Source: Maritalea myrionectae DSM 19524 (GTDB taxonomy: Bacteria > Pseudomonadota > Alphaproteobacteria > Rhizobiales > Devosiaceae). Taken from it: a stretch of DNA of 64,000 bases. Shown in pieces: positions 1,555 through 34,373 of this stretch (position 1 is its first letter; each line of letters opens with the position of its first letter). Both the position numbers and the translations under genes were made by a program. The stretch lies in contig NZ_AUHV01000002.1 of NCBI RefSeq assembly GCF_000423365.1, positions 372,001-436,000 of the forward strand. The letters are read 5' to 3'. The notes beneath the pieces were generated by a model that had not been told where the DNA came from, did not search any database, and was given only the letters and a program-made list of their open reading frames with translations.

Positions 1555-2067
1555 ATGGCAGACAAAAAAAAGACCAGAGCCTATAAGCATTTCAAGCGCG
1601 CGATGTCGATTTCGGAATTGGCAGAACGGGCGATTGAACCGCTGGCGCAAAAGCGCGGCTTTGCTAATGCCGAATTGTTGACCCGTTGGGCACATATTGT
1701 GCCTGAACCGTTTGATCAATCGGTGATCCCCGACCAGCTCAAATGGCCCCATTCCGGGCAGATTGAAGGCGCCGCCGGCGCGATACTCACCGTGAGCGTC
1801 GACCCGATCTACGCCCTCGCCTTCACCCACGAGACCGACATGATCAAAGGCGCGATCAACCGCTATTTCGGCTTTTATCTGGTGGATAAAATCAAACCCT
1901 CCCGCCGCCCGTTTTTGCCGCAGCAGCAAGAGGATACCCGGCCTCAGTTAAGACCGCTGACGCCGAAGGTTGAGGCGGAACTGAATGCGGAGCTGGATGG
2001 CATTGAGGATGCGGAACTGCGCGAGGCGTTAATGAAGCTTGGGCGGGGGCTTAAGGGGCGGGGTTAG
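1555..2067 (+). CDS. DUF721 family protein (DciA-like)
   Basis: 170 aa from the ATG at 1555 (MADKKK); an earlier in-frame ATG at 1468 overlaps the mutY start and its 29 extra residues look unlike the family. The core (SELAERAIEPLAQKRGF to the FGFYLVDKIK segment) matches DUF721, a KH-like fold family that includes the replicative-helicase loader DciA; whether this member loads helicase is inference. In Hyphomicrobiales this gene usually lies between mutY and a dsbA-like gene upstream of smc. Here that link is broken directly after its stop codon, which overlaps the stop of the next, convergent gene in the four bases TTAG. Confidence 0.8.
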   Translation: MADKKKTRAYKHFKRAMSISELAERAIEPLAQKRGFANAELLTRWAHIVPEPFDQSVIPDQLKWPHSGQIEGAAGAILTVSVDPIYALAFTHETDMIKGAINRYFGFYLVDKIKPSRRPFLPQQQEDTRPQLRPLTPKVEAELNAELDGIEDAELREALMKLGRGLKGRG

Positions 2068-2513
2068 GGGTTTTCCCCAGCCTCGCGATCTATGAATTCG
2101 GCAATGGAGTAAATCTCTAAATCTAGCGCATCTGCAATGTCACGAATTGATACAGTTATTGGAGCGTTTTCACCCGTAACAATCACATATCCTTCTGATG
2201 CAGCCACTGCAGCAAGTAACAATTTTTCATTTGCTTCGGGTGCCGTCACATTAACTAAATTTTCAAGCCTGTCCGAATAACTTGCTGCAAGACGGGAGTG
2301 TTCTTGCCTTGTTGCTGCGGTCGTCACGTTTTCGTTTATTACTTCCCGTTCGTCTGGAAATGCGTCTATAAAAATTTCTTTTTGGGGTTTAGTTGTAAAA
2401 AGGCTCTGCTTTCCAAGTCTAGAAAGTATATCGTGGCATTCATCAGTACCATTGCAAAACCCGTTTTCGAGTGCTTCGTAATCAAATAAGTACATAGGGC
2501 TAGCTAGAAACAT
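2064..2513 (-). CDS. PIN-like domain protein, possible toxin partner of the XRE-ImmA/IrrE gene
   Basis: 149 aa. The N-terminus (MYLFDYEAL) and the C-terminal stretch (LLLAAVAASEGYVIVTGEN, then a short helix and IYSIAEFI) follow the layout of PIN-like RNases such as DUF4411, with an early Asp after the first strand; the other acidic residues of a PIN site are not clearly recognisable, so the assignment is tentative. It overlaps the 3' end of the upstream gene by 14 bp if translation starts at 2513, where GGGGGT lies just upstream; the alternative ATG at 2495 lacks a ribosome binding site. PIN-like proteins of this kind are often encoded next to XRE-COG2856 proteins (known), which suggests a toxin-antitoxin-type pair (inference). 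The DNA is visibly AT-rich relative to the neighbours. Confidence 0.5.
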   Translation of the reverse strand: MFLASPMYLFDYEALENGFCNGTDECHDILSRLGKQSLFTTKPQKEIFIDAFPDEREVINENVTTAATRQEHSRLAASYSDRLENLVNVTAPEANEKLLLAAVAASEGYVIVTGENAPITVSIRDIADALDLEIYSIAEFIDREAGENP

Positions 2514-3678
2514 CTACCCCCTTGTACTCGGAGAGTTTTTGTTCTGCGGTGTCACTCAACAACTGAAAGTATTTTGGCTTCAGGCGACTAAATCGAAATA
2601 CAGTTGATGCCGACAATCCTGCTTTCCTATACTCATTCGGTACGGAACGCGCAAAGAGGTATCCAAACTTTGACAGTTTGTTCTGCCCCAGAAAAGCACC
2701 GCCACCTCCTCCCTCGGACTTTACCTCGCTTGGAAGTTCATTGGTTTTACCAAACTGGCCCTTCCATGTATTCCAGAAGTTGTCAGGCGCATATCCACAC
2801 TCCACTAAGCGAATAACTAAAGCTTCTTGACTAACACGAAGCCTTTTTGCAACTCGCCTAATACTCTGGTTGCTAAGGGGGTTGCTATGTCTGTTGAATT
2901 CGCTGGCAACCATGTCACGTGGCATTAAGAATTCCGCAGCGAAGCGATTACAAGCGCGCTCAAGTTCAGAGGAGGGATTGAATGGATTTGAAAGATCGTC
3001 TTGTCCTAAAAGAACATGACAAAACTCATGCATCATCGTGAATAATCTTGCGCCATGAGTCTGCCTATATGAGTTGATTAGGATGACCGGGATGTCATCG
3101 GTCGCACCAAATACCAAACCTTTTAGCTTTTTGTTTTCGAAAGACGAGACCAACACGCTGATGCCAAGCGACTCTATTCGACTCCTAATAAAGGAAAAAA
3201 AGGCGTTCTCTGATTTAGAGCGGAGCTGGCTCTCGTTCGAAATCTCCAATGACTTTCGCCATTTTATCGCCAGTTCCTCAAAGTCTTTTGGTGCTGTGTA
3301 AACAGGTTCACCAAGGTGAGACCATGTCATTTCCTCTTCCACTACTTGGGCCAGTAGAGCTTGAATCCTTTTTGCATAACCAATGGCTTCAATGGCAACT
3401 TTAGGATCCCCCTCCAATCCGCCAAGTTCTGTTCGAAAGTCAATTTTTTCGGCTACCGAAAATTGATTTTTTTTGAAGAAAGCTAATGGAGCTACACCAA
3501 AGAATTCAGCCAATCGATTAATCTGCTTTGAGCTCGGTGGTTTCTCCCCCTCCAAAAAGTGCGACACCTGAATTGGAGTTGCATCTATATACTGCGCAAC
3601 CTTATTTATATTGGCACCAGTCTGATTTATAAGACTGTCTAGTATTTGCGGGTTAAAATTGGGGAGTTTGTTTGACAT
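2500..3678 (-). CDS. XRE-type HTH fused to ImmA/IrrE metallopeptidase (COG2856)
   Basis: 392 aa from the ATG at 3678. Residues about 8-70 form an XRE-like helix-turn-helix. A peptidase M78 (ImmA/IrrE) domain follows, with the zinc motif HEFCH at 217-221 and the downstream metal-ligand helix with NRFAAEFLMP. A Gly-rich linker (GGGGG) leads to a C-terminal tail seen in long COG2856 proteins. Known: such proteins either repress and cleave regulators in mobile elements or pair with PIN-like toxins. Its ATG at 3678 directly abuts the ATG of the divergent gene at 3679 (CATATG), so both genes must place their promoter and ribosome binding site inside the other's coding sequence, or one start is misplaced. 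An in-frame ATG at 3690 exists. Confidence 0.85.
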   Translation of the reverse strand: MSNKLPNFNPQILDSLINQTGANINKVAQYIDATPIQVSHFLEGEKPPSSKQINRLAEFFGVAPLAFFKKNQFSVAEKIDFRTELGGLEGDPKVAIEAIGYAKRIQALLAQVVEEEMTWSHLGEPVYTAPKDFEELAIKWRKSLEISNESQLRSKSENAFFSFIRSRIESLGISVLVSSFENKKLKGLVFGATDDIPVILINSYRQTHGARLFTMMHEFCHVLLGQDDLSNPFNPSSELERACNRFAAEFLMPRDMVASEFNRHSNPLSNQSIRRVAKRLRVSQEALVIRLVECGYAPDNFWNTWKGQFGKTNELPSEVKSEGGGGGAFLGQNKLSKFGYLFARSVPNEYRKAGLSASTVFRFSRLKPKYFQLLSDTAEQKLSEYKGVDVSS

Positions 3679-4176
3679 ATGACGATGCAATCATTTGGCG
3701 ACTACGCGAGTGTCTTAGAATTAGGTTTTGCAATCAATGTTGCGGCCACTTTTGTAAACAGTTTTACGAGCCCCATCCTAAGCAGAGCCCGCGCAGATTA
3801 CAACCGAGCAGATTATTGGTTAAGCAACCCAGAAAAAATGGAAAGATTGAATTTTTCAGAGGCAGCCAAGAATGATCTAGAAGACTCTTTGGCACAATGG
3901 TATATGGCTATCCATTCTTTAGAAAAAGAAATCTCCAATAAAAACATCGTGGTAGATAAGATTGGTATAGCAGCTGCAATAGGCTGTTTTTTATTACTGT
4001 TAATTCCTCAAGTGGAGTTATACGCGCCCTACACACCAATTATCGCAACTGTGCTTGCAATTGGCCCCATGGGTCTATCAATGGTTTGGATTAGTGATAA
4101 AACGAGCATCGCAAGAAAAAAAGAAAGGGTCTTGCGCGACAAAACTAACGTGATCATTTCGGAAGCCCAGAGATAA
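3679..4176 (+). CDS. Hypothetical two-helix membrane protein
   Basis: 165 aa, not recognised as a named family. A polar, helical N-terminal half of about 90 residues is followed by two close hydrophobic segments (about 93-110 and 117-137) and a short charged C-terminal helix. This layout resembles small 2TM effector proteins such as SLATT domains, but that is only topology. The DNA is AT-rich like the two minus-strand genes it diverges from, and the three look like one imported unit. GGGGAG at 3661 is a possible ribosome binding site for the ATG at 3679; an ATG at 3685 is the alternative. Confidence 0.6.
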   Translation: MTMQSFGDYASVLELGFAINVAATFVNSFTSPILSRARADYNRADYWLSNPEKMERLNFSEAAKNDLEDSLAQWYMAIHSLEKEISNKNIVVDKIGIAAAIGCFLLLLIPQVELYAPYTPIIATVLAIGPMGLSMVWISDKTSIARKKERVLRDKTNVIISEAQR

Positions 4177-4265
4177 GTGTCCAAGTTTTTGGTTTGCGCT
4201 CAACTGGTTCCCTGGGTCTAGTCTGGAACGGTGTGTTTGGCTGGTGCTGAGCCCTTAGCCGCAGT

Positions 4266-4293
4266 CGTCATTCCCGCGCAGGCGGGAATCCAG
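4266..4293 (-). repeat. REP-like palindrome, copy 1
   Basis: The 8-bp stem ATTCCCGC/GCGGGAAT is at 4270-4277 and 4282-4289, with a CGTCA tail on the left. Read on the minus strand it follows the local pattern TGGA-stem-loop-stem-TGACG shared by all five copies. It forms an inverted doublet with copy 2. Confidence 0.85.
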
Positions 4294-4348
4294 ATTGGAC
4301 TATCCTCGCGGCAATGCGCTGGGGAGGTGCGCCTTGGTTTGCGCTGCA

Positions 4349-4378
4349 TGGCCCCTCGGGTCAGGCCCGAGGGTGACG
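4349..4378 (+). repeat. REP-like palindrome, copy 2
   Basis: The stem CCCTCGGG/CCCGAGGG is at 4353-4360 and 4366-4373, the loop is TCAGG, and the tail is TGACG. The stem is identical to that of copy 5, about 650 bp away. Opposite polarity to copy 1. Confidence 0.85.
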
Positions 4379-4530
4379 GTGGCGGGGATGGAATGCTGTG
4401 CCCTCATGTACCGTTTCTTACTGTCGACAGGTGAAATGGATTGCAAGACAGATTCACGCTCACGCCGCGAGGCTGGTCTTGCAATGAAGCGGGAGGTGTT
4501 TTGCGCAGTGCGAATTGTTCGGGCGCTGCT

Positions 4531-4558
4531 TGGACACCGGATCAAGTCCGGGGTGACG
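4531..4558 (+). repeat. REP-like palindrome, copy 3
   Basis: The short stem CCGGA/TCCGG is at 4537-4541 and 4547-4551, the loop is TCAAG, and the tail is GTGACG. The left flank GCTGCTTGGA is the same as at copy 5. This is the least perfect copy. Confidence 0.75.
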
Positions 4559-4629
4559 CGGGAGGGTTGGGTTGGTGCGGTGCTGTGTCTAACAAATTGC
4601 GTTTGAGAAATGTCTGCCTAACACTCTCC

Positions 4630-4661
4630 CGTCATTACCGGGCTTGACCCGGTAATCCATG
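4630..4661 (-). repeat. REP-like palindrome, copy 4
   Basis: The 9-bp stem ATTACCGGG/CCCGGTAAT is at 4634-4642 and 4648-4656, and the loop on the minus strand is TCAAG. The tail (CGTCA as read on plus) points outward, away from the GIY-YIG gene that starts 20 bp further on. Confidence 0.85.
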
Positions 4662-4680
4662 TAGCGGCAATGTTTTCGCC

Positions 4681-4968
4681 ATGGGTGGATGGGTTTACAT
4701 CATGAGCAACAAGATGAACGGCACGCTATATGTTGGCGTGACGAGTGATTTGGTGCGGCGGGTTTATGAACATCGTGAGGGTGTTGTTGAAGGATTTACC
4801 AAGGACCATGAGTTGAAGCGTTTGGTGTATTTTGAAGCGCATGATGAAATTGGCGCGGCCATTCAGCGGGAGAAGAGTTTGAAGCGCTGGTCGCGGGCTT
4901 GGAAAGTTGAGTTGATCCAGAAATTCAATCCATTCTGGGATGATTTGTTTGATCAGATTTGTGGGTGA
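4681..4968 (+). CDS. Small GIY-YIG nuclease domain protein
   Basis: 95 aa, the usual length of single-domain GIY-YIG proteins of the UPF0213/YhbQ type. Motifs in order: VYIM and LYVGVT (the GIY-YIG strands), RRVYEHR with the catalytic Arg, QREKSLKRW with the metal-binding Glu, and a final KFNPFW. Known: the fold cleaves DNA in homing endonucleases and UvrC; the role of the small stand-alone bacterial forms is poorly defined. The gene sits between two inverted REP-like palindromes and close to three more. An ATG at 4702 (MSNKMNG) is the alternative start, but the VYIM strand lies before it, so 4681 is preferred. Confidence 0.88.
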   Translation: MGGWVYIMSNKMNGTLYVGVTSDLVRRVYEHREGVVEGFTKDHELKRLVYFEAHDEIGAAIQREKSLKRWSRAWKVELIQKFNPFWDDLFDQICG

Positions 4969-4999
4969 ATTGGTTTGGTGCCGTTTCGCCCGAGCTGCT

Positions 5000-5029
5000 T
5001 GGACCCTCGGGTCAAGCCCGAGGGTGACG
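5000..5029 (+). repeat. REP-like palindrome, copy 5
   Basis: The 9-bp stem ACCCTCGGG/CCCGAGGGT is at 5003-5011 and 5017-5025, the loop is TCAAG, and the tail is TGACG. The left flank is GCTGCTTGGA. It lies 31 bp after the GIY-YIG stop codon in opposite polarity to copy 4. Confidence 0.85.
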
Positions 5030-5082
5030 TTTGGGGTGTGGGCGACGCCGGAGAGCGCGGCTACTGCGGTGACAATACGTCC

Positions 5083-6099
5083 CTACCGCACCGCCTGCCA
5101 CGAACCCGGGGCTTGGCCGGTCCAGCGTTTGAAGGCGCGGGAGAAGGCGCTGGGGTCGGAGAAACCGACGAGGTAGGCGGTTTCGTTGGCGGAGACTTTT
5201 TTCTCGGCCAGATAGTGGCAGGCCATTTTGTGGCGGAGATCGTCGCGCAATTGTTCGAAGGAGATGCCTTCGGCTTTGAGGCCGCGATATAGGCTTTGGC
5301 GGGAGAGACCCATTTTTTCGGCCACCTGATCCATGGTCAGCTCGCCCGTATGCAGCACCGGGATCATGATGCTTTCGGCCCGCCCCTTTATGGTCTTGCT
5401 GCTTTCCAGTTCTTTGAGCAACGCGTCGGCATGTTTGGAAAGAATGCCAAAGGCATAGCGGTCGGCATAATCGGTTTGCACGGTGAGCCATGAGGTTTCG
5501 ATTTCCATGGCGTTGCGGTCTGCCGCGAATTCAACTGGGGCCTGCAGCACACGGTCATAATCCTTATAATGAGCGGGCCGCTCGTGGGTGACCTTGATGC
5601 GTTTGACGAAGGGGGTGTCGCCAAAATGGCGGCGGAACTCGCAAATGAAGCGGCCAAAGGTGCTTTCGGTGAGTTCGGGAAACTCATTGGGGTTCAGCCG
5701 GGTATCTTCCAGCCACAATTCATGGCCTTCAGGCACCAGGGCAAAGCGTTCGCCTGCGGTGCCGATATCCACTTCGGCCACAAGTTTGCCATAGCGATTG
5801 AGCTGTTCGAGCGCCTCGCCCATATTGGCGGTGGATTCAGCGATCAGCCCGACAATTGAGGTGCGGACAAAGGGCATGTCCCAACAATAATCCAACGAAA
5901 AGGCGGGGTTGTTGGTGTATTCGGCGCCCAGCTGCATCATGCGGCGAAACTTTTCCATCGGCACGCGGTTGTCGGCATCTTCGAAGATGGCGTCATCCAG
6001 TTCGACCGCAGCCAAAAGGGCCGAACGGGACGCGCCCTTATCCGCCGCATAATCCAAGATTGATTTTAGATAACCAGCTGAAACGCTGCCATTTTCCAT
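5083..6099 (-). CDS. AraC family transcriptional regulator with arabinose-binding-like N-terminal domain
   Basis: 338 aa from the ATG at 6099 (MENGSV). Residues about 10-200 match the ligand-binding domain found in OruR/ArgR-like AraC proteins (PF12625 type), and the last about 90 residues form the two-HTH AraC DNA-binding domain (TMDQVAEKMGLSRQSLYR, then AYLVGFSDPSAFSRAFKRW). It is divergent from the membrane protein at 6229 across 129 bp, so that gene is the first candidate target. The ligand is unknown. Confidence 0.88.
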   Translation of the reverse strand: MENGSVSAGYLKSILDYAADKGASRSALLAAVELDDAIFEDADNRVPMEKFRRMMQLGAEYTNNPAFSLDYCWDMPFVRTSIVGLIAESTANMGEALEQLNRYGKLVAEVDIGTAGERFALVPEGHELWLEDTRLNPNEFPELTESTFGRFICEFRRHFGDTPFVKRIKVTHERPAHYKDYDRVLQAPVEFAADRNAMEIETSWLTVQTDYADRYAFGILSKHADALLKELESSKTIKGRAESIMIPVLHTGELTMDQVAEKMGLSRQSLYRGLKAEGISFEQLRDDLRHKMACHYLAEKKVSANETAYLVGFSDPSAFSRAFKRWTGQAPGSWQAVR

Positions 6100-33830: not shown

Positions 33831-34373
33831 TTATGAAGCATGGAATGCATAAAAGAGCGTGATTTCCCGAATTGTATCAAGCTCGTCGTTTAAATCCAGC
33901 TCCGGATCCAAATAATAAAGAACCGGCATTTGTACTGTTTCATTCGGCGCAAGGGTTTGCTCGGTGAAACAAAAACACTCAATCTTGTTGAAGTATGCTC
34001 CCATGGACGCGGGTGTCACATTGAAGCTCGCAACAGTTTTGACAGGCTCATCCGTGAGGTTTGTGGCCTCATAAGTCACTGTAATTTTCTTACCAATTTT
34101 ATCGACTTGCGTTGCCGCAGGCACTATTTTAACCGGTAAATCAGCGTCGACCTGCGCTGCGAAGCGCACTGCCATCTCGCGGTCGATTGTTGAAATCACA
34201 CCGTCTTCCGCGCGCTGAGTTGTGCCGCCATAGCCAGTGACCTGACAGAAAATCTGATAGAGCGGCACCGCCGCATAGGCCATGCCCACCATCAACGCAA
34301 CAACCAGCACCAAACCATAAGCAATGCGCTTATTGGATCGATTTCCGTGATGTTGTGTGTCGACATGTGCCAT
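33831..34373 (-). CDS. ctaG: Cytochrome c oxidase copper chaperone CtaG/Cox11
   Basis: 180 aa. An N-terminal transmembrane anchor (about 17-37) is followed by a periplasmic domain with the copper-binding CFCF motif (IECFCFTEQ). It delivers copper to the CuB site of subunit I. Confidence 0.95.
   Translation of the reverse strand: MAHVDTQHHGNRSNKRIAYGLVLVVALMVGMAYAAVPLYQIFCQVTGYGGTTQRAEDGVISTIDREMAVRFAAQVDADLPVKIVPAATQVDKIGKKITVTYEATNLTDEPVKTVASFNVTPASMGAYFNKIECFCFTEQTLAPNETVQMPVLYYLDPELDLNDELDTIREITLFYAFHAS

Follow-up and report, generated by a model that had tools for sequence, protein, structure and literature searches.

Site-specific single-strand GIY-YIG nucleases (Ssn) were reportedly described, along with their NTS repeats, by Chenal et al. 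(Nat Commun 2025); the Ssn of Neisseria meningitidis is said to be a GIY-YIG nuclease that is specific for single-stranded NTS repeats and affects transformation. A second literature concerns repetitive extragenic palindromes (REPs). Within this, Di Nocera et al. (2013; PMC3733652) define the ‘CGTC REPs’ by a CGTC or TGTC head, a stem of 8–9 bp starting A-T, a loop of 4–5 nt, a CCA tail and an arrangement in opposite-orientation dimers; they are reported mainly from alphaproteobacteria and, in the words of that paper, “apparently lack a dedicated transposase”. PMC8266576 describes E. coli TnpA-REP as processing single-stranded REP, and such enzymes as having co-evolved with their REPs, and the dRS3 repeat is given in PMC3898611 by the pattern ATTCCC(N8)GGGAAT.

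The window analysed here, a stretch of 64,000 nt from Maritalea myrionectae DSM 19524, contains a small GIY-YIG gene framed by palindromes of this general kind. Its relevant features, with the basis on which each was assigned, are as follows.

4630..5029, + strand: 400-bp unit of REP (heads out), GIY-YIG gene and inverted REP (palindrome scans; deleted copy on contig C5)
4681..4968, + strand: GIY-YIG nuclease gene, 95 aa, single domain (Pfam; conservation in homologs)
4630..4659, + strand: left end REP, reading CGTC, 9-bp stem, CTTGA, stem, CCA (hairpin scans)
5000..5029, - strand: right end REP, inverted (hairpin scans)
4660..4665, + strand: TGTAGC, left subterminal motif adjoining the REP tail (genus-wide matches of the C5 copy often end at 36 nt)
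4994..4999, + strand: GCTGCT, right subterminal motif, approximately the inverse of the left TGTAGC (dimer survey; genus-wide matches of the C5 copy)
4266..4292, + strand: extra CGTC REP, sub-type with an 8-bp stem and 4-nt loop (hairpin scans)
4349..4378, - strand: extra CGTC REP (hairpin scan; dimer survey)
4531..4558, - strand: extra CGTC REP with one mismatch in the stem (hairpin scans)
about 4437..4489, - strand: REP of TTGCAAGA type, decayed and with an expanded loop (read by eye; called by no tool)
contig C5 of the same genome (G000), 127755-127923: deleted copy of the window unit, 169 bp (alignment to the unit)

The unit begins CGTCA and ends TGACG, with 21 bp between the tail of its left REP and the ATG, and the copies at 4266–4292 (+) and 4349–4378 (-) form a further heads-out dimer with a 56-bp spacer. 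A first-pass annotation of this DNA had recognised five copies of one palindrome family within 0.8 kb, the last two facing outward around a 95-aa GIY-YIG gene, and this arrangement, with a unit of exactly 400 bp, is borne out. The five copies at 4266–5029 are the only CGTC hairpins in the 64-kb window to score ≥6; at a score of ≥7 there are four, versus a mean of 0.3 and a maximum of 2 in 30 dinucleotide shuffles (a looser first scan also gave weak matches at 34358 and 63763, which were lost once G-U pairs were penalised). The picture of a uniform family with a constant loop needs qualification: all five copies bear the CGTC tag, but copy 1 is of a sub-type with an 8-bp stem and the loop GCAG, copy 2 has the loop CCTGA, copies 2 and 3 have one stem mismatch each, and the decayed, loop-expanded copy makes a sixth beside the five that were called. 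The suggestion of compensatory change stands, with 98.4% of stem cells pairing across ten copies (7 distinct) from three loci of this genome, both sides altered in 7/9 stem pairs, and pairing falling to 49% when the partner is slid by one column.

The protein encoded at 4681–4968 is a GIY-YIG domain (Pfam PF01541, E 2.4e-15) with no other domain found in Pfam, and 58 aligned homologs with a flanking palindrome conserve Y6 (0.98), Y17 (0.98), R27 (1.00), E64 (1.00) and N83 (0.98); by analogy with I-TevI, the catalytic residues are presumably among these. The nearest named relative found is Maritalea mobilis, where (L067) a protein of 94% identity lies in the same neighbourhood, and a Neisseria gonorrhoeae homolog (L167; 52% identity over 98%) is embedded in dRS3-type palindrome arrays, 16 within 1.6 kb. 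This gonococcal homolog may be the published Ssn, an identification with which its setting is in line. Set beside the definition of Ssn, the window gene encodes a single GIY-YIG domain with the presumed catalytic residues and has a genomic repeat around it; its family is most likely Ssn, and the pairing of enzyme and repeat has therefore probably already been described, under that name.

A defence system was considered for the GIY-YIG gene and rejected, there being no PADLOC match, and a phage origin is unsupported: 11 phage records match, all at <60% identity and just one with ≥80% coverage. On plasmid p1 of Planktothrix agardhii, a homolog (L175:2489-2773) has an MmeI-type restriction gene on one side and a DISARM gene on the other, and the palindromes around it are of a different, TGTCATTCTGAG type. 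The window gene itself falls within a variable hotspot (2064–5085) whose contents differ among its own genome, Maritalea mobilis and genome G030, and which also holds a gene (2500–3690) with an M78/IrrE domain that matches PADLOC RmrA models. A conserved block (mutY/DUF721-like) borders the hotspot on one side and araC/dsbA/smc on the other; AraC is a Pfam assignment, the other gene names being putative.

Across its own 3.54-Mb genome the strain has three small GIY-YIG genes, the window gene and two paralogs. A covariance model (R1), built from ten copies that all come from these three loci and used to score 150 of 2015 candidates, gives at least 55 REP matches at E≤0.1, in 24 clusters; with training from the gene loci and scoring of the best candidates only, this figure is a lower bound that leans towards those sub-types, and the model misses the 8-bp-stem copy at 4266. 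In their head, 8–9 bp stem, 4–5 nt loop and CCA tail, as well as in these many dispersed copies and opposite-orientation dimers, the window palindromes agree with the definition above and are members of the CGTC-REP superfamily as published (PMC3733652). All three GIY-YIG genes have a REP on both sides within 300 bp, though for the C3 paralog the upstream one is degenerate (23.9 bits), and downstream of the C2 paralog the closest REP is ‘+’, with a ‘-’ copy farther out. Nine of the 55 matches lie within 300 bp of the three genes, versus 0.03 expected from a uniform spread, and 45 are >500 bp away from them. No hairpin was found within the 3.2-kb stretch around L007, where a GIY-YIG domain lies in a 630-aa frame (UvrC-like by size). 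At 33 loci of this genome, neighbouring REPs ≤250 bp apart make 30 pairs (16 ‘+-’, 10 ‘-+’, 3 ‘++’ and 1 ‘--’), the commonest having the layout of the gene unit.

Heterodimers of TTGCAAGA and CCCCAAGA stems recur (L001–L003 and dimers of the own genome) with TTTSA...TSAAA beside their tails, where the CGGG types instead have a TGYAGC subterminal motif. A dispersed repeat of ~250 bp (L018:1411-1670), 72–80% alike and recurring in genomes G024 and G030, includes a REP heterodimer and, beyond it, some 90 bp more, which makes it a composite element bigger than a REP pair; in G024 the empty site for the L018 dimer is not a clean one, and the alignment to G030 continues across the dimer.

The deleted copy of the window unit on contig C5 has a left REP of the same type as in the unit, with two mismatches, and an identical right REP. 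It is colinear with the first 93 bp of the unit (83% identical), including the start-codon region and AACAAGATGAACGG, then runs through about 35 bases without a clear match, and closes with the final 42 bp of the unit (39/42 identical); its interior aligns with a score of 36 versus a shuffle maximum of 18. Genus-wide, this copy has many matches that break off after 36 nt, at the REP plus TGTAGC or GCTGC, so that the repeated end extends beyond the palindrome. For the flanks of the C5 copy, G024 offers no good match and G030 none at all, and another possible deleted copy, in G030 (about C12:125740-125908), was set aside as marginal, its score of 20 equalling the shuffle maximum. The C5 copy and the ‘+-’ dimers would be the traces expected of an autonomous unit with non-autonomous derivatives.

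The first-pass annotation had allowed that a lack of empty or alternative sites in close relatives would count against a discrete 400-bp unit. Sites both with and without such a unit do occur in other genera, namely Azospirillum, Sphingobium and Shinella. In Azospirillum lipoferum 4B (L172:2486-2779) the suf operon is interrupted by the GIY-YIG unit, which has sufB on one side and sufC on the other, the gene lying between two complete dimers, with two REPs on each side, rather than in a ‘+ gene -’ layout. The sufB-sufC junction is gene-free in all 11 other Azospirillum records with both flanks among the first 40 of 129 matches listed (87–95% identical), so gain is the simplest reading for A. 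lipoferum, and no REP is present in the three unoccupied junctions that were aligned, so that simple homing into a REP is unsupported. On Sphingobium plasmids, seven records (two read) have the gene, flanked by fnrL on one side and by a response-regulator gene on the other, and five lack it (four other records and S. herbicidovorans). In two of these five, TYG64 and TYG74, the site holds a single palindrome headed by CGTC at either end, as though the left arm of the left REP had been fused to the right-hand part of the right REP; given that no REP is visible in TYG65 or at the S. herbicidovorans site, the scar of a lost unit would be its simplest reading. Double-headed palindromes elsewhere, in 0.99 Mb of loci (overlaps included), are rare and mostly chance-like, so only the Sphingobium case is used here as a possible excision scar.

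In Shinella and its kin, three records carry a four-REP block (two read; two, being of equal length, may be one plasmid) that is absent from 12 records with both flanks, comprising ten Shinella, one Sinorhizobium and one labelled Roseateles (three read). Inspection by eye of the Azospirillum, Sphingobium and Shinella junction alignments showed no target-site duplication. For the window unit no clean empty site was found: in G030, where the AraC neighbour is 96% identical, the gene and palindromes are absent, but the entire stretch from the DUF721-like gene to araC differs. Likewise, beside nrdJ, at the place of the C3 paralog, G030 has one REP and no GIY-YIG gene in the stretch read, with flanks that differ. 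The evidence for mobility consists of empty sites in three other genera and, for the window unit, of a deleted copy at another locus.

A scan of genome contigs returned 179 relatives of the protein, of which the best 80 were analysed by comparing the 200 bp upstream of each gene with the reverse complement of the 200 bp downstream, alongside 320 same-locus control windows. A flanking inverted repeat scoring ≥16 was found at 50/80 loci versus 0/320 controls, and one scoring ≥14 at 59/80 versus 3/320. These repeats are alike within a locus and unlike between loci, with long variants that escape the hairpin scan; loci with nuclease and palindromes are spread over several phyla, and repeat-free loci also exist (for example L102, L111, L129 and L143). 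A pooled set was assembled from the best 80, the own three, 29 family loci and nine from a plasmid collection (in which 34 records had a match), giving 121 loci, or 118 after deduplication. Here the nearest upstream REP is ‘+’ in 43/50 cases and the nearest downstream one ‘-’ in 41/52, and 30 of the 40 two-sided loci read ‘+ gene -’, with 10/40 arranged otherwise. REP density is 2.25/kb within 300 bp of the gene versus 0.115/kb beyond 1 kb, and 3.42 versus 0.54/kb when counted outside long ORFs, which lowers the enrichment from ~20-fold to ~6-fold. The two ends are identical in 11/40 two-sided loci (shuffled mean 0.8, maximum 4), and the median distance from REP to gene is 30.5 nt upstream and 18 nt downstream. 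A canonical CGTC hairpin within 200 bp is absent from 53 of the 111 loci with full flanks, some of which carry variant palindromes caught by the inverted-repeat test. Over roughly the first 13 nt outside the CGTC head of 111 REPs near GIY-YIG genes, the sequence is C-rich and G makes up 8–18%, versus 24–41% farther out, which may mark either the end of the element or a target preference.

Protein and palindrome also appear to vary together. Protein distance correlates with palindrome distance (Mantel r 0.23, reached by 1/5000 permutations), and the closest protein neighbours agree in palindrome length in 43/58 cases (shuffled mean 29, maximum 42; 58 of the 62 palindrome-bearing loci); phylogeny confounds the Mantel test, and shared ancestry alone could explain part of these results. 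Within the family, the gene is present in 69/101 genomes (E≤1e-10) and R1 REPs in 84/101. With at most 73 candidates scored per genome, the median count is 24 REPs in genomes with the gene (n=69) and 2 in those without (n=32), and 6/69 and 11/32, respectively, have none; six of the 32 gene-less genomes hold 28–60 REPs, which counts against reading nuclease and REPs as one element, and phylogeny confounds these counts too. The association of the GIY-YIG gene with palindromes is real, broad and specific. Palindromes, mostly facing outward, are commoner beside these genes than farther away, and the equal density beside unrelated genes that the first-pass annotation had named as adverse to its case was not found, either across loci or within the own genome. 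Its larger idea, that a GIY-YIG enzyme with REP-like palindromes would form a system of its own, survives as a strong, mostly outward association in many genomes, but is less new than implied.

We think it fairly probable, judging from sequence, that the GIY-YIG nuclease recognises the CGTC REPs on its two sides when they are folded as single-strand hairpins, and that gene and REPs together make a small mobile package in the manner of a RAYT ‘REPtron’. In such a scheme, and in line with the reported Neisseria precedent, a palindrome exposed as single strand during replication or DNA uptake would fold into a hairpin with its CGTC head and CCA tail unpaired; the nuclease would then bind the loop, head and tail of the folded REP and nick there. 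GIY-YIG enzymes act on DNA by hydrolysis and are not known to rejoin it, so that host functions would be needed for movement: host repair or replication might join the ends, such that the framed unit is lost or is copied elsewhere. A moved unit would carry the gene or, in internally deleted copies, just the two REPs, and the dispersed heads-out REP dimers may stand to the gene-bearing unit as REPINs do to RAYT units, being its non-autonomous relatives. That the flanking repeat is the cognate site of the nuclease, and that the nuclease itself moves the unit, we infer from this arrangement.

Alternatively, a resident nuclease of Ssn type could limit or shape DNA uptake and exchange by cutting incoming single strands at the palindromes, with the unit not being mobile; recombination would spread the palindromes, and the copies beside the gene would be one site among many or a site of self-control. 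The reported Neisseria meningitidis work, the position of the gonococcal homolog inside dense dRS3-type arrays and the distance of most own-genome REPs from the gene all speak for such a role. Pure exchange predicts neither whole units present or absent at orthologous sites nor a deleted copy, however, and we regard this explanation as rather unlikely, although a role in uptake and a role as a mobile unit are mutually compatible. The REPs that lie away from the gene, or in some gene-less genomes, would suit passive hitchhiking, whereby other enzymes (RAYTs or others) spread CGTC REPs and short intergenic gaps by small non-essential genes are preferred, as would the drop in enrichment under the non-ORF control. 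This we consider improbable, in view of the prevailing outward orientation, the ends that match within a locus, the stems that differ between loci and the spread across several phyla; moreover, a RAYT gene flanked by CGTC repeats was not found by Di Nocera et al. (2013; PMC3733652). The spacing of the palindromes from the gene and the compensatory changes in their stems might suggest a function in RNA only, with the upstream hairpin (about 20–30 nt before the start codon) setting translation and the downstream one terminating or stabilising the transcript; but palindromes recur away from the gene, gene-free dimers recur, and the head and tail are conserved outside the stem, all of which makes such a function very improbable indeed.

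Returning to the reading that we prefer, that of a REP-recognising nuclease within a mobile unit, we tentatively raise a wider possibility, which we consider somewhat less likely than not: that the mobility enzymes still missing for the CGTC-REP superfamily as a whole are small GIY-YIG nucleases, with REP-gene-REP as the autonomous form, dispersed heads-out dimers as deletion-derived non-autonomous forms, and each nuclease co-evolving with its own stem and loop. If true, CGTC REPs would represent a second, non-HuH origin of bacterial REPs. Should the reported Ssn activity hold for them, nucleases with matched stems might also be assembled into a panel of ssDNA cutters of differing specificity. 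The unit joins the literatures on REPs and on single-strand GIY-YIG nucleases; among the matches listed, a literature search gave no paper on GIY-YIG genes framed by REPs, which is no proof of absence, and ‘GIY-YIG’ with ‘repetitive extragenic palindrom’ led, among the matches listed, only to PMC9465073, with one occurrence of each. What may be new, as far as sequence comparison can suggest, is the connection with CGTC REPs in a REPtron-like mobile unit, together with the evidence for mobility. How the CGTC REPs are spread was a question left by Di Nocera et al. (2013), and the framed gene, the empty sites and the deleted copy make that question testable.

Compared with known systems, the window unit resembles Ssn in having a small GIY-YIG protein and a palindrome beside the nuclease in many taxa. 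It differs from the gonococcal homolog, whose repeats are of the CGTCATTCCCGCG type and dRS3-like, in its 9-bp stems and CTTGA loop, and from Ssn more generally in being a framed unit with empty sites in other genera and a deleted copy, for which cleavage is predicted. The UPF0213 structures PDB 1zg2 and 1ywl, remote matches at E 3.8e-4 and 0.065, are likewise one small GIY-YIG domain but are distant in sequence. The CGTC REPs of PMC3733652 have the same build, with no dedicated mobility enzyme reported there, whereas in the window they frame a GIY-YIG gene. Membership of the RAYT family itself was rejected, as the protein has no HuH domain (GIY-YIG only in Pfam) and the palindrome head is CGTC, not GTAG. 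Nevertheless, RAYT/TnpA-REP REPtrons and REPINs, as described in PMC8266576, share with our unit a REP-framed nuclease gene and dispersed REP dimers as its likely non-autonomous partners; the one combines an HuH tyrosine transposase with a GTAG tag, the other a GIY-YIG nuclease with a CGTC tag.
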